Assembly: GCA_003696125.1 (NCBI GenBank)
Contig: RFHZ01000166.1
Coordinates: forward strand, 1 to 5,913
Direction: 5' to 3'
Source of the DNA: Nitrospinota bacterium
GTDB lineage: Bacteria > Tectomicrobia > Entotheonellia > J063
DNA length: 5,913 nt
Below, piece after piece: positions 1 through 5,639 of the stretch (the stretch's first letter is position 1; each line of letters opens with the position of its first letter). The translations under genes were made by a program, and so were the position numbers. A model generated the notes under the pieces. That model had not been told where the DNA came from. It did no database searches and worked only from the letters and a program-made list of their open reading frames with translations.

Positions 1-1472
1 AGGGCTTCCTCGATCTCTTTCACAAAGAACCCCTTATCCCCTACCGTGGGCAGGGGAACATCACGGATCACATCACCACTGGTCTTGATGATCAGCTTCT
101 CAAAGGTGATATGGGGGAAGAGGGAGGCCAGTTGACGCTGTACCCACTCTGTCTGGCGCAGGGCAAGGGAGCTGCCCCGACTCCCGATACGGATCGGGCG
201 GTGCCAGCGCTCGTTCAGGTCGAACAGTTGGCGCACTGCCTGCAGGAGCTTATTCCCTTCCGGGGCCTTGACCCCTTTCCGCAGGTTCATGATCGGGGTG
301 GAGAGGAGCTTATCGACCATGGCGATGGAAAAGGCTTCGATGGCTTCCCGTTCCTGTTCCGATAGAGTGGGGAGGTGGTCTAAAAGCTGGGAGAGCTCTT
401 GTTGCCGGATGCTCTCCGCTTTCTGTTGCAGCGACACAATGGTGGGGGCCACATCCAGGCTATTCAACCAGCGCTGGAAGGCCACCGCTTCTCGATTGAC
501 CAGTTCTTCGGCGATCGCTGCTTCCTGTTGTCGCTGGCGGATGTTGGTGTTGACCACGTTCTGCAGGTCATCCACATCGTAGAGGTAGACGTTGCTGATG
601 GCATTGACCGAGGGGTCGATGTTGCGGGGAGCGGCCATATCGATGAAAAACATCGGCCGGTAGCGTCGCCGGCGGATCACCTCCTGGACTGCGGCCCGGG
701 TCAGCACCGGATGCCGGGTCGGCATGGAACCCAGGACAATATCGGCCGTTTCCAGATAGGTAAAGAGATGATCGTACTGGATGGCGTCCCCGTCCAGTCG
801 TTCCGCGACGGCTACGGCACGTTCAAAGGGGCGGCTGCAGATCAACAGGGTGCGCACCCCATGATGGAGCAGGTGTTGGGCCGCCAATTCAGCCATCTCT
901 CCGGTCCCGATCAACATGGCGGTGCAGTGATGGAGATCGACAAAGATCTTCTTGGCCAGTTCCACGGCGGCAAAGCTGATCGAGACCGCATTCTCCGCGA
1001 TCTGGGTTTCCGTGTGTACCCTTTTGGCCACGGAAAAGCTCTTCTCAAAAAGGGCTCCCAGCACATTACCGACCATGCCGTGTGCCTTGGCCCGATTGTA
1101 CGCCTCCTGTACCTGGCCCAGGATCTGCGGTTCGCCCACCACCATCGAGTCGAGGCTGGAAGCCACCCGGAAGAGGTGACGGATGGCCTCTCCTTCCACA
1201 AAATGGTAGAGATAGCTGCGAAAGGCGCGTTCAGGTACCCCATGATAGTCGGACAGGAACTGCACAATGCGCTCTCGTCCCTGCTCAACCTCTTTCACGC
1301 GGGCGTACACCTCTACCCGGTTGGTGGTGGAGAGGAGCACCTTTTCCTGTAGCTCGCTGTACTGATCCAGCTTTTCGGCAACTTCCTGCCACTGGTAAGG
1401 TTCGAAGGCCAGCTGTTCTCGAATTTCCAGCGGGGCCGTTTTATGGCTCAGACCAACAACCAAGAGGGGCAT
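1..1472 (-). CDS. hemA: HemA-HemC fusion: glutamyl-tRNA reductase joined to hydroxymethylbilane synthase (3' end outside window)
   Basis: The frame is open from the ATG at 1472 to the window edge (490 residues seen, no stop). Residues 1-421 are glutamyl-tRNA reductase, the NADPH-dependent enzyme that reduces Glu-tRNA to glutamate-1-semialdehyde. Visible motifs are GLSHKTAP (7-14), His99, LDSMVVGEPQILGQ (107-120), a nucleotide-binding IGTGEM stretch (188-193), FIDMAAPRNID (276-286) and a helical C-terminal dimerisation domain ending DLNE (418-421). After RWHRP comes the start of porphobilinogen deaminase (HemC): IGSRGSSLAL (429-438; Arg432 and Ser434 match E. coli Arg11 and Ser13), KTSGD (463-467) and GDKGFFVKEIEEA (478-490). 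There is no Met between 395 and 490, so a separate HemC start is unlikely. The catalytic Cys50 of STCNR is Thr50 (STTNR) and conserved Gly106 is Ser. Only two Cys (183, 212) occur in the visible 490 residues, neither near the active site. AAGGA lies 8 nt before the ATG, just after the ccsA stop. The family assignments are certain; reductase activity is not. Confidence 0.95.
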   Translation of the reverse strand, partial: MPLLVVGLSHKTAPLEIREQLAFEPYQWQEVAEKLDQYSELQEKVLLSTTNRVEVYARVKEVEQGRERIVQFLSDYHGVPERAFRSYLYHFVEGEAIRHLFRVASSLDSMVVGEPQILGQVQEAYNRAKAHGMVGNVLGALFEKSFSVAKRVHTETQIAENAVSISFAAVELAKKIFVDLHHCTAMLIGTGEMAELAAQHLLHHGVRTLLICSRPFERAVAVAERLDGDAIQYDHLFTYLETADIVLGSMPTRHPVLTRAAVQEVIRRRRYRPMFFIDMAAPRNIDPSVNAISNVYLYDVDDLQNVVNTNIRQRQQEAAIAEELVNREAVAFQRWLNSLDVAPTIVSLQQKAESIRQQELSQLLDHLPTLSEQEREAIEAFSIAMVDKLLSTPIMNLRKGVKAPEGNKLLQAVRQLFDLNERWHRPIRIGSRGSSLALRQTEWVQRQLASLFPHITFEKLIIKTSGDVIRDVPLPTVGDKGFFVKEIEEA

Positions 1473-1487
1473 CGTGCTCTTCCTTTG

Positions 1488-2285
1488 CTATCCGTAAAAG
1501 CCGTAAACATGGATTCCATACCCGAGTAACACCATCAGAAAGCCGATGATGGCGAGCAGGGCCGCGCGTCGTCCTCGCCAGCCGGCGTAGACACGTCCCC
1601 AGAAGAGGACAAGGTAGATGCACCAGGTAAAGATCAGGGGCCAGGTCCGCCCTTCCCAGCTCCAAAACGACCCCTTGGTATAGCGGGCCCAGATCGATCC
1701 GGTCACGATACCGAGGGTGAGGAGAGGAACACCTACCGTCAGCGCGACGAAGTTGAGGTTGTCCAGCACTTCCAGGGAGGGGAGGCGGTAGTAGAGGCGT
1801 CCCAGTTTCTTCCCCTTGAGCTGGTTCTCCAGGATGATGTACATGACCCCGACACAGAAGGCCAACACAAAGGTCGCATTACCCAAGATGGCCAGGGAGA
1901 TATGGGCCACCAGCCAGAAGTGTTGCAACAGGTAGAGCAGTCCCTCCTCCTGGCGGGGACTGACCAGGGAGGAGAGGTAAACAAAGAGCGCAATGGGGAC
2001 CATAAAGGAGCCGAGGGCTTTGATTTGATAGCGACGCTCTACCGCGATATAGAGGGCGATGATCATCCAGGCGGCAAAGTTGACATACTTCTGCAGGGGA
2101 CTGGAGAAGAACAGGTCGAAGAGGAAGGCGGAGAGGAGAAAGGCGGTGTGACAGAGGAAACCTGCCCAGACGATCTTATTGGCGATCTGAAAGAGGGAAG
2201 AGCGACGATAGGCAAAGTAAAACCAGTGGAACCCTCCTCCTACCAGATAGGCACATAAGGGAAGGGTGAAGATCAAGATACCCAT
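1488..2285 (-). CDS. ccsA: CcsA/HemX-type cytochrome c assembly membrane protein
   Basis: This is a polytopic inner-membrane protein of 265 residues with about eight hydrophobic segments (roughly 2-20, 38-60, 66-84, 91-108, 122-150, 176-198, 214-230, 241-263). The C-terminal part carries the tryptophan-rich heme-handling signature of the CcsA/ResC/HemX superfamily: GSIWARY (196-202), then KGSFWSWEGRTWPL (204-217). The family usually has WSWD; here it is WSWE. His128 (VAHISLAILG) and His259 (GIHVYGFYG) sit where the family has conserved, probably heme-ligating histidines. Members either deliver heme for cytochrome c maturation or, as with Bacillus HemX, lie beside hemA and affect HemA level. 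The immediate position before hemA (15-nt gap holding its ribosome site) favours a HemX-like role, but sequence alone cannot separate the two. AAGGAAG lies 6 nt before the ATG. Confidence 0.88.
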   Translation of the reverse strand: MGILIFTLPLCAYLVGGGFHWFYFAYRRSSLFQIANKIVWAGFLCHTAFLLSAFLFDLFFSSPLQKYVNFAAWMIIALYIAVERRYQIKALGSFMVPIALFVYLSSLVSPRQEEGLLYLLQHFWLVAHISLAILGNATFVLAFCVGVMYIILENQLKGKKLGRLYYRLPSLEVLDNLNFVALTVGVPLLTLGIVTGSIWARYTKGSFWSWEGRTWPLIFTWCIYLVLFWGRVYAGWRGRRAALLAIIGFLMVLLGYGIHVYGFYG

Positions 2286-2389: not shown

Positions 2390-3181
2390 CTAGTACGCCG
2401 GGGTCTGGCCGGTTTTGGTCCCTGTCTTCCGAACTGCAGCCACCTCCTCTGCTGCCTTGGCGGCCAGGAAGCGGCTGTCAGAGGCCAGTGTGACCAGTTG
2501 ATACCCTTCCTCGATCATGCGGAGGGCGTATTGGGCGGTCGAATTGTGGATCCCTGCCACCACGCCATGCCGCTTGCACGCCTCCACGATCTTCTTCTGG
2601 GCCTCTACCACCGGGGGATCGGTCTGATCCAGGCGCGGTCGACACCCCAGGGCCAGGCTCAGATCGGAGGGGCCGACGTAAATGGCGTCAACGCCGGGTA
2701 CACTCAGGATATCGTCCAGATTCTTAAGCGCCTCCGCCGTTTCGATCATCGGGATGACGAGGATCTCCTCGTTGGCATGCTCCGCATAGTCTGCTCCGGC
2801 ATAGAGGGAGGCGCGGACCGGTCCGTAACTCCGGTACCCCTGAGGGGGATATTTACAGGCCTGCACCAGCGCCTCGGCCTGCTCGCGGGTGCTGATCATA
2901 GGACAGATCACCCCATATACCCCCGCATCCAGGATTTTCATCAGATAGGCGGGATTATTCCAGGGGACACGGGCCAGGGGAACCGCTGGCGTGTTGGAGA
3001 TCGCCTGCAGCATGGTTACCGCAACCTGATAATCCACCACACCATGCTGCATATCGATGGTCAGGGAGTCGAATCCCTGATGCGCCATCACCTCGGCAGA
3101 GAAGGAACTCGGAATGGATAACCAGCCATTGACGACAACCCCGCCACTTGCCCAGATCGACTTTAGTCTGTTCTCTCGCAT
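2390..3181 (-). CDS. HpcH/HpaI family metal-dependent aldolase
   Basis: This 263-residue protein belongs to the class II pyruvate aldolases typified by HpaI (4-hydroxy-2-oxoheptanedioate aldolase), which reversibly cleave 2-oxo-3-deoxy acids to pyruvate and an aldehyde. The TIM-barrel active-site set is complete: Asp43 and His46 in TIDMQHG, Arg71 in LARVPW, metal ligands Glu147 in IPMIET and Asp173 in YVGPSDLSLALG. They match HpaI Asp42, His45, Arg70, Glu149 and Asp175, and the length is usual. AGGAGA lies 5 nt before the ATG, and the preceding FAD enzyme gene ends 36 nt upstream, so the two are probably co-transcribed. The substrate cannot be read from sequence. Relatives include HpaI, GarL-like and RhmA-like aldolases. 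The C-terminal 13 or so residues are polar and probably disordered. Confidence 0.9.
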   Translation of the reverse strand: MRENRLKSIWASGGVVVNGWLSIPSSFSAEVMAHQGFDSLTIDMQHGVVDYQVAVTMLQAISNTPAVPLARVPWNNPAYLMKILDAGVYGVICPMISTREQAEALVQACKYPPQGYRSYGPVRASLYAGADYAEHANEEILVIPMIETAEALKNLDDILSVPGVDAIYVGPSDLSLALGCRPRLDQTDPPVVEAQKKIVEACKRHGVVAGIHNSTAQYALRMIEEGYQLVTLASDSRFLAAKAAEEVAAVRKTGTKTGQTPAY

Positions 3182-3217
3182 GTGTCTCTCCTTTTTGTGC
3201 GCTTATTTACCACTCCT

Positions 3218-4393
3218 CTACCTCATCCGGTTGCCTTCCGGCTCAGGTGCTCTCCCCTGCTGCGTGATCTCCCGGTTTTGAAAACGGCTCAGGCGAAAAA
3301 GGGAGAGGTCCAGAGACGGTTGGCCGTCGAGGATCATCTCTGCCACCACGCGACCGGCTGCCGGAGAATGCTGGAATCCATGCCCGCAGAATCCGATGGC
3401 ACAGAGGACCCCTTCCACCCCTGGCAGATAATCGATGATGGCATGCTCATCCGGGGTGAGCGGGCGCAGACCGGCCCATCCGCTCATGATCCCCGCGCGT
3501 TGCAGGACAGGAACCCGCCTTGTCGCCTTTTGCGCCGTTTCCTCTGCCTTGCTCCAGTCGATACCGACATGGTAAGAGAGGGGGACGGCCTCTGCGTCAC
3601 CAGGACTCATCAGCACACCCGGGCCTTCGGCCCGGCAATAAAAGCCAGAGGTGCGATCGATCACCAGGGGAGAGGGGTGCACGAAATCCGGAAACGGTTC
3701 GGTAAAAAAGATATGGCGCCGGCGGGGAAGAAGGGGGAGTTCCTGGCCCAGCATCTTCCCGATCAGACCGGCCCAGGGACCGGCTGCATTGACTACCAGG
3801 GGGGTGGCAATGGTGCCGCGCGTCGTTTGCACCCCTGCTACCCGCTCTCCATGTACCAGGATGTCGACCACCTCGGTCTGTTCCAGGATGCGTACCCCCT
3901 TTTCCCGCGCTTTGCGGGCATAGCCCATCACCACTTCATTGGTCCCGGCATAGCCGTCGGTCGGACAGTAAACCGCGGCCAGCAGATCCTCAATGGCGAG
4001 TTGAGGGACGAGCTCCCGCGCCTCTTGCGGGGAGATGATCTGCACATCCACCCCGAGCCGTTGCTGCATGGCGACCTGCTGACGGAACCGCTCCAGGTCG
4101 CGCTCATCATTGAGGAGAAAGAGATAGCCTACCTGCCGCAGGTAACAGCTCGTCCCCATCTCCTCCTCGAAACGACGGAAAAAGTCTAGGCTCTCCAGGG
4201 AAAAGCGGACCTCTGTCTCTGTACCAAACTGGGCACGGATCCCTCCTGCTGCCTTGCTGGTCGTTCCTGAGCCGATCAGATCCCGCTCCAGCACCACAAC
4301 ATCCGTTTGTCCTCGTCGGGCGAGATGGTAGGCGATACTGCACCCGATGGCTCCAGCCCCGATAATGACCACATCAGCACTTTTCGGTATCAT
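3218..4393 (-). CDS. FAD-dependent oxidoreductase of the DAO family (sarcosine oxidase beta / glycine oxidase-like)
   Basis: This 391-residue flavoenzyme has an N-terminal Rossmann dinucleotide fold: VVIIGAGAIG (8-17, Gly12/14/17) with Glu36 ending the second strand to bind the FAD ribose. GSGTTSKAAGGIRAQFG (41-57) is the segment typical of sarcosine oxidase beta-type and related enzymes. NAAGPWA (202-208) and the C-terminal GWAGLRPLTPDEH (305-317) plus GFCGHGFQHSPAAGR (334-348) complete the FAD site. The family oxidises secondary or primary amines and amino acids (sarcosine, glycine, proline, opines, gamma-glutamylputrescine as in PuuB). I see no diagnostic residue for covalent flavin attachment or for one substrate. 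AAGGA lies 6 nt before the ATG. The gene sits between a gamma-glutamyl hydrolase-like gene (53-nt gap) and an aldolase gene (36-nt gap), which suggests one step of a shared catabolic route. No membrane segment is seen. Confidence 0.9.
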   Translation of the reverse strand: MIPKSADVVIIGAGAIGCSIAYHLARRGQTDVVVLERDLIGSGTTSKAAGGIRAQFGTETEVRFSLESLDFFRRFEEEMGTSCYLRQVGYLFLLNDERDLERFRQQVAMQQRLGVDVQIISPQEARELVPQLAIEDLLAAVYCPTDGYAGTNEVVMGYARKAREKGVRILEQTEVVDILVHGERVAGVQTTRGTIATPLVVNAAGPWAGLIGKMLGQELPLLPRRRHIFFTEPFPDFVHPSPLVIDRTSGFYCRAEGPGVLMSPGDAEAVPLSYHVGIDWSKAEETAQKATRRVPVLQRAGIMSGWAGLRPLTPDEHAIIDYLPGVEGVLCAIGFCGHGFQHSPAAGRVVAEMILDGQPSLDLSLFRLSRFQNREITQQGRAPEPEGNRMR

Positions 4394-4446
4394 CCCTCTT
4401 CCTTAAATCGCCTGGTGCATCGGGCAGGTGGGCAGAAGATCCGCAT

Positions 4447-5196
4447 TCAGGTGCGCACTGGTTGGAGTTTGGCAGCCTGGACAAAGGCCTCAAAGAGTCG
4501 CCGGGCCCCTTGGTCTCGCTGGTACATCCGTTCAGGGTGCCACTGTACCCCGAGGACAAACCCGTTCCCTGGTCGTTCGATGCCCTCGATGATGCCATCT
4601 TCTGCTCTGGCCGTTACCAAGAACCCTTCGGCAACGTGCTTTACTGCCTGATGGTGGAAGCTATTCACGCGGTAACTGGTTCCCCCACAAATCTCCTGTA
4701 GCCTGGACCCGCTCTCGATGTGCACGGCATGGGTCGCATACCAGCCAGGTGCCGCCTGTTGGTGCTTTATCGCTTCAGGCAGTTGACTGGCGATATCCTG
4801 ATAGAGGGTACCGCCGAAGGCGACGTTCAGTACCTGCATGCCACCGCAGATTCCCAAAATGGCCCGTCCTTTGGCAAAGGCTTTACGGGTTATGGTCAAC
4901 TCAAAATCTGCTCGCAGCGGATTCCCCGGTCCCAGACGAGGGAGGGGAAGCTCTCCATAACAGGAAGGATCGAGATCCGAGGAGCTCCCAGGGATCAGCA
5001 CCCCTTGTATCATATCGACATAGGCATCGATAATCTTAAGCTGGGCAGAAACGGGGAGCAAAACCGGAATTCCTCCGGCCTGTTCTATGGCCTCGACATA
5101 AGAGGCCCGCAAGATGAGGGCAGGATTCCCAGGGTAGACAGAATACCGCTGTTCTCCACTATCATAGTCACAGGTTATACCGATGTACGGCTTCAC
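4447..5196 (-). CDS. Class I glutamine amidotransferase, PuuD-like gamma-glutamyl amide hydrolase (peptidase C26 type)
   Basis: This 249-residue stand-alone amidotransferase domain is close to the length of PuuD (about 254), which hydrolyses gamma-glutamyl-GABA to glutamate and GABA. The catalytic triad is visible: Cys117 in the nucleophile elbow GICGGMQ, and His220 and Glu222 in GVQWHPE. The oxyanion loop IPGSSSDLDPSCYGE (68-82) and VNSFHHQAVK (177-186) resemble the PuuD equivalents. No synthetase or ammonia-accepting domain follows, which fits a hydrolase. The start is GTG at 5196, set by AAGGAGG with a 5-nt spacer. It is the first gene of the set, about 33 nt after a predicted transcription start. 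PuuD with a PuuB-like FAD oxidase recalls gamma-glutamylated polyamine breakdown, but no ligase (PuuA) or aldehyde dehydrogenase is in view, so the substrate remains open. Confidence 0.88.
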   Translation of the reverse strand: MKPYIGITCDYDSGEQRYSVYPGNPALILRASYVEAIEQAGGIPVLLPVSAQLKIIDAYVDMIQGVLIPGSSSDLDPSCYGELPLPRLGPGNPLRADFELTITRKAFAKGRAILGICGGMQVLNVAFGGTLYQDIASQLPEAIKHQQAAPGWYATHAVHIESGSRLQEICGGTSYRVNSFHHQAVKHVAEGFLVTARAEDGIIEGIERPGNGFVLGVQWHPERMYQRDQGARRLFEAFVQAAKLQPVRT

Positions 5197-5348: not shown

Positions 5349-5633
5349 TTACCGCTCTTCGCTTTCACTTGCCCGCTGCGGCACCACAGGAATGGCCACA
5401 GTAGAATGCCGGTAATCGGACATAAAGCGCTCGCTCACCTCTTCAAAGTCTTCAATGAACTGGGCAATCACGGATAAGACGTTTTCTAAATTCTCTTTGG
5501 AAAAGGTGACATTGCTCCCCTTTTCTTGCTCGATCTTATTGGCCAGGAAACAGCAGGCCACCTTGACATTGGTGAGCCGTTTGCTGAGGTAAGGGAAAAC
5601 CTCTACGACCGTCTGCTTTCGTTCCATCACCAC
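5349..5633 (-). CDS. Small soluble protein of unknown function, about 94 residues
   Basis: I do not recognise this protein. It is mostly amphipathic helix: a hydrophobic first half with paired cysteines (KVACCFLANKI), an acidic middle (VLSVIAQFIEDFEEVSERF) and a polar, probably disordered C-terminus (RASESEER). No signal peptide or membrane span is evident. The coding case rests on a perfect AAGGAGG ribosome site, an upstream promoter and protein-like composition. The start is ambiguous. GTG at 5639 touches the ribosome site and is unlikely. GTG at 5633 (6-nt spacer, chosen), GTG at 5630 (9 nt) and ATG at 5627 (12 nt) are all in frame. It lies between two promoters, so it is probably monocistronic, with some read-through into the amidotransferase gene possible. 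Confidence 0.7.
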   Translation of the reverse strand: MVMERKQTVVEVFPYLSKRLTNVKVACCFLANKIEQEKGSNVTFSKENLENVLSVIAQFIEDFEEVSERFMSDYRHSTVAIPVVPQRASESEER

Positions 5634-5639
5634 TTGCAC

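Follow-up and report, generated by a model that had tools for sequence, protein, structure and literature searches.

Does the reading frame that runs out of one end of a Nitrospinota contig encode a true fusion of glutamyl-tRNA reductase (GluTR, HemA) with hydroxymethylbilane synthase (HemC), and are both parts of such a protein enzymes? The window, i.e. the whole stretch of 5,913 nucleotides that was analysed, is contig C476 in its entirety; the MAG to which it belongs (Nitrospinota bacterium, GenBank GCA_003696125.1) has 4.18 Mb in 990 contigs and is 94.8% complete with 8.0% contamination. According to the ORF list, the open frame 1472..3 on the minus strand comprises 490 amino acids from the ATG at 1472 and leaves the contig end without a stop. 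In this frame Pfam recognized GlutR_N (6-156), Shikimate_DH (171-306), GlutR_dimer (321-419) and Porphobil_deam (427-490), the last with profile positions 1-62 of 207. The features of the locus are as follows.

1488..2285, minus strand: gene for a HemX/CcsA-like membrane protein with a Cytochrom_C_asm match, the immediate upstream neighbour of the fusion within the hem operon (ORF list, Pfam)
1481..1485, minus strand: AAGGA resembling a Shine-Dalgarno sequence, placed 8 nt ahead of the hemA ATG; it overlaps the end of the preceding gene (inspection)
210..1472, minus strand: HemA (glutamyl-tRNA reductase) domain, residues 1-421, catalytically degenerate, with GlutR_N, NADPH-binding and dimerisation domains (Pfam, TIGR01035)
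1323..1325, minus strand: codon ACC (Thr50) at the catalytic cysteine position, two base changes from TGC or TGT (sequence, alignment)
234..236, minus strand: GTG in frame within the HemA C-terminal motif VRQLF, lacking a well-placed Shine-Dalgarno sequence (inspection)
195..209, minus strand: linker RWHRP, without stop or start codon (sequence)
3..194, minus strand: first 64 residues of HemC (hydroxymethylbilane synthase), truncated at the contig end, with the apparent remainder on contig C540 (L024:2-721) (Pfam, NCBIfam)

The hem operon is adjoined by a catabolic cluster (2390-5196, minus strand) with an HpcH/HpaI aldolase, a DAO-type FAD oxidoreductase and a peptidase C26 resembling gamma-glutamyl-GABA hydrolase. 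An ORF of 96 amino acids (5349-5639, minus strand) was unmatched in Pfam and NCBIfam and gave only a chance-level PHROG match (E 0.069).

The first-pass annotation had described HemA and HemC as lying in one frame with a linker of about five residues, and the open frame, the Pfam matches and the residues RWHRP agree with this. The junction reads ...VRQLFDLNE-RWHRP-IRIGSRGSSLAL. Around the junction, the HemC frame contains neither ATG nor TTG; the closest start-type codon in frame, and the only one in this region, is the GTG at 236-234. HemC would thus still be without a start if a stop had been misread, e.g. at the Trp codon, and hence a single sequencing error is not sufficient to account for the fusion. 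The analysis confirms that HemA and HemC are fused in frame, and we take this to be a genuine fusion of genes within a hem operon of the order hemX, hemA::hemC, hemD, hemB.

Since the window is the whole of C476, HemC is ended by the contig end and not by a stop. In a profile search of the contigs the sole other HemC match of the genome was located at the start of C540, covering profile positions 74-206 in phase. A separate intact hemC elsewhere in the MAG, which the first-pass annotation had named as a finding against the fusion, was not detected by this search. The last residues of C476 are ...KEIEEA-CT, where CT is the beginning of a Leu codon, and C540 starts with C-AGC-ATC-AAA-GAC, the final base of a His codon followed by SIKD. 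Compared with the complete HemC of L025, both pieces are complementary and in phase without overlap; about 30 nt are missing, and this gap itself is unseen. The N-terminal motifs GSRGS and KTSGD are present in the window (194-3), whereas the piece on C540 contributes an HSIKDLP-type catalytic Asp motif and the Cys of the dipyrromethane cofactor (GGCQVP). The simplest reading is that one hemC gene was split by the assembly, which supports the expectation that the frame continues into a complete HemC. With its key residues retained, the HemC half would be the only hydroxymethylbilane synthase of the organism. On C540 the HemC C-terminal domain is followed by hemD and then hemB. The annotation's further suggestion of a run-on into HemD has to be dropped, as hemC terminates there, with an overlap of 4 nt with hemD. 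Directly downstream of hemB, C540 carries a glutamate dehydrogenase-like protein fused to a CBS domain pair (L024:2626-4452).

The HemA half was described beforehand as full-length. This is right for its length, but the catalytic cysteine was overlooked: the codon at 1325-1323 is ACC, and the fused HemA reads STTNR where GluTR has STCNR. At this site cysteine was found in all of the 110 other HemAs compared, which were chosen by a pattern leaving the cysteine position free. Cys48 is reported to be the nucleophile of GluTR and to be conserved in all GluTRs (PMC3778395); with it the glutamyl thioester is formed (PMC3778395; also PMC6399207). Because the nucleophilic cysteine is replaced by Thr, the fused HemA should not be able to form this thioester, and we infer that it is without reductase activity. 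Further deviations at highly conserved sites, T215P, T250M, A252T, I279M, V281A and H391S, mostly fall in the NADPH-binding domain. Nevertheless, most of the substrate pocket (Thr49, Arg52, Glu54, His99, Glu114, Gln116) and the NADPH motif GTGEM are kept, as would be expected for a bifunctional HemA-HemC with both activities, in which Thr50 or another residue serves as nucleophile. We regard such a protein as very improbable in view of the cysteine shared by all comparators and reported as the conserved nucleophile of all GluTRs (PMC3778395), the changes at the NADPH site and an intact HemA elsewhere in the genome. The fold itself appears to be preserved. The TIGR01035 score of the fused HemA (459.8 bits) is above the cut-off, and the AlphaFold model has good confidence for HemA and matches solved GluTR structures; for the truncated HemC portion the model is poor, and it gives no information on how the domains are placed relative to each other.

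The intact enzyme, a stand-alone canonical HemA, is encoded on contig C49 (L023:1521-2789). It is 66% identical to the fused copy, and its cysteine and every other conserved site are intact. A strong candidate for HemL was also found in the MAG (68% to a generic query sequence), so that a working GluTR is expected in this organism. As the fused HemA lacks the nucleophile, the glutamyl-tRNA reductase activity would have to come from the HemA on C49, which presumably does the HemA job of the organism. The first-pass annotation had suggested that both enzymes work and are kept in a fixed stoichiometry; this is thus not upheld. The hemA on C49 is flanked by apparent fragments of a PAS-domain sensor protein (L023:1193-3808), as if it was inserted beside or into that gene.

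In the tree both HemAs are sisters (support 100/99), with branch lengths of 0.42 for the fused and 0.16 for the stand-alone copy. Their differences are distributed over the three codon positions as 110/61/224. With dN 0.23 and dS 1.54 (saturated) the ratio is low, a value that spans both lineages since their split and says nothing on the date of the cysteine loss or on selection after it. When neutral drift of 421 codons to the same distance was simulated, stops arose in every run. Together with the mostly synonymous differences this speaks against free drift of the sequence and shows that purifying selection prevailed in the evolution of the pair.

The fusion is known from one fragmented MAG only. 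This, the contamination of 8% and the HemC broken at a contig end could speak for an artefact of assembly, sequencing or binning, by which the junction was misread or the two HemAs were brought together from two organisms. Several results make an artefact unlikely. At least two changes are needed to undo the fusion, one for the missing stop and one for the missing start, and the cysteine change needs two more; furthermore, the gene order is that of the usual hem operon. The tetranucleotide signatures of C476, C540 and C49 fit the genome (r 0.93, 0.96 and 0.94), whereas loci of other genomes gave r of 0.37 and 0.58. Moreover, rpoB, HemB and HemC are single copy in the MAG. Based on these copy numbers and the common signature, a second organism in the bin is unlikely as the source of the two HemAs.

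The relatives indicate how the fusion may have arisen. In four other genomes of the phylum (G001-G004) hemA and hemC are separate and adjoining in different frames, all with intact cysteine. In the Nitrospinota-like families f7 and f58, about 30 of 60 genomes have hemA, a stop and hemC in one frame (L004, L025, L032-L042, L056 and further genomes of these families; L056 is a Nitrospinaceae MAG that groups with G009). There the junction has exactly one stop codon, with an ATG between the genes or directly after the stop, e.g. HLDD-stop-MEPRKIKIGSRGS. Translational coupling or readthrough is possible at such junctions. By sequence this arrangement appears to be one step short of a fusion and shows how short the route to it can be. 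Relatives with a stop between the genes had been proposed as grounds for rejecting the fusion; the stops are indeed present, but they argue for a fusion derived in this lineage, not for an error.

Neither the 80 named GTDB loci nor the loci of 120 related genomes contained a second HemA-HemC fusion; none besides the window was found in the about 120 loci compared. The scan of 386 genomes, 199 of them with HemA, revealed none among the matches listed, where long frames of at least 650 amino acids were inspected. The fusion is thus unusual, as had been supposed, although rare HemA-HemC fusions may exist elsewhere. G044, which came into consideration by its listed frame length, was rejected because of stops between the genes. 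Viral contigs contained no relatives of the window lineage, plasmid records only ordinary separate hemA and hemC, and in the literature searched no HemA-HemC fusion was found.

Taken together, we consider it probable that after a duplication the HemA of the operon lost catalysis and persisted as a GluTR-fold domain joined to HemC, and that the relocated copy supplies the glutamyl-tRNA reductase. One hemA copy would have moved to its place on C49 and kept the enzyme activity; the copy in the operon would have lost its catalytic residues and joined HemC. Translation from the HemA ATG would then yield one chain with the GluTR-fold domain, the five-residue linker and a complete HemC.

Why such a domain is kept may be explained in two ways. 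GluTR is a V-shaped dimer able to dock HemL (PMC6399207, PMC3778395), and on this ground the dead domain may be retained in folded form for dimerisation or docking. It could bring HemC into a dimer, associate with the active HemA or bind to HemL. Tentatively, the pseudo-GluTR domain, set free by the hemA duplication, might be a permanent scaffold for dimerisation or docking that attaches HemC to the HemA/HemL complex or brings it under regulation by way of this complex; if true, the third common tetrapyrrole enzyme would be tied to it. The main rival is a functionless relic: the HemA half would be a decaying duplicate, a mere N-terminal extension that stays in frame only since HemC uses its start codon. 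This would agree with the lost catalytic residues and with a fused branch 2.6 times longer than that of the sister copy. Furthermore, a frame break would also abolish the single-copy HemC, so the frame is protected even if HemA serves no purpose. In contrast, the matches to the three GluTR domains are still good, GluTR is recognizable over the whole length and models as such with good confidence, the changes are mostly synonymous, and the retention of 421 codons at full length suggests that the fold matters. We hold the relic to be doubtful. If the non-catalytic GluTR-fold domain is real, tetrapyrrole synthesis would include a pseudoenzyme, which would offer a natural test of structural or regulatory roles of this fold besides catalysis, for which a dimer scaffold, HemL docking and the sensing of tRNA or haem are candidates.

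Compared with known HemA (TIGR01035; PDB 1gpj, 4n7r, 5che), the fused copy has all three domains, the full length and a structural match; it differs by the exchange of Cys50 for Thr, the changes at the NADPH site and the C-terminus continuing into HemC. HemC (TIGR00212) is matched by the N-terminal motifs in the window and by the Asp motif and the Cys for the cofactor on C540, but the fused HemC lacks its own start codon and makes up the C-terminal half of a chain that begins with a HemA-like part. The f7/f58 loci with abutting genes (L004, L032-L042, L056) share the frame and, within a few codons, the spacing. In contrast to the fusion they encode separate proteins with own stop and ATG, and their HemA is catalytically intact. 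Another arrangement was observed in G039, where HemA lies behind a siroheme-synthase-like domain of the CysG/Met8 N-terminal type in one ORF of 627 amino acids (L027:3031-4914).

HemC-HemD fusions are known, and fusions of haem-pathway enzymes usually combine two working enzymes. A survey of archaea described HemC fused with CobA-HemD and, in one Sulfolobus assembly, a HemA-HemB fusion (PMC11237513). All of these resemble the present case in that neighbouring hem genes are fused in frame. In the parts of the archaeal survey considered here (PMC11237513), HemA with HemC is not mentioned and loss of catalytic residues in a fused partner is not described. The protein reported here is a fusion of tetrapyrrole enzymes with a likely pseudoenzyme as one partner: a single-copy, presumably essential HemC is joined to a nucleophile-less form of the first committed enzyme of the pathway, with an intact paralogue alongside.
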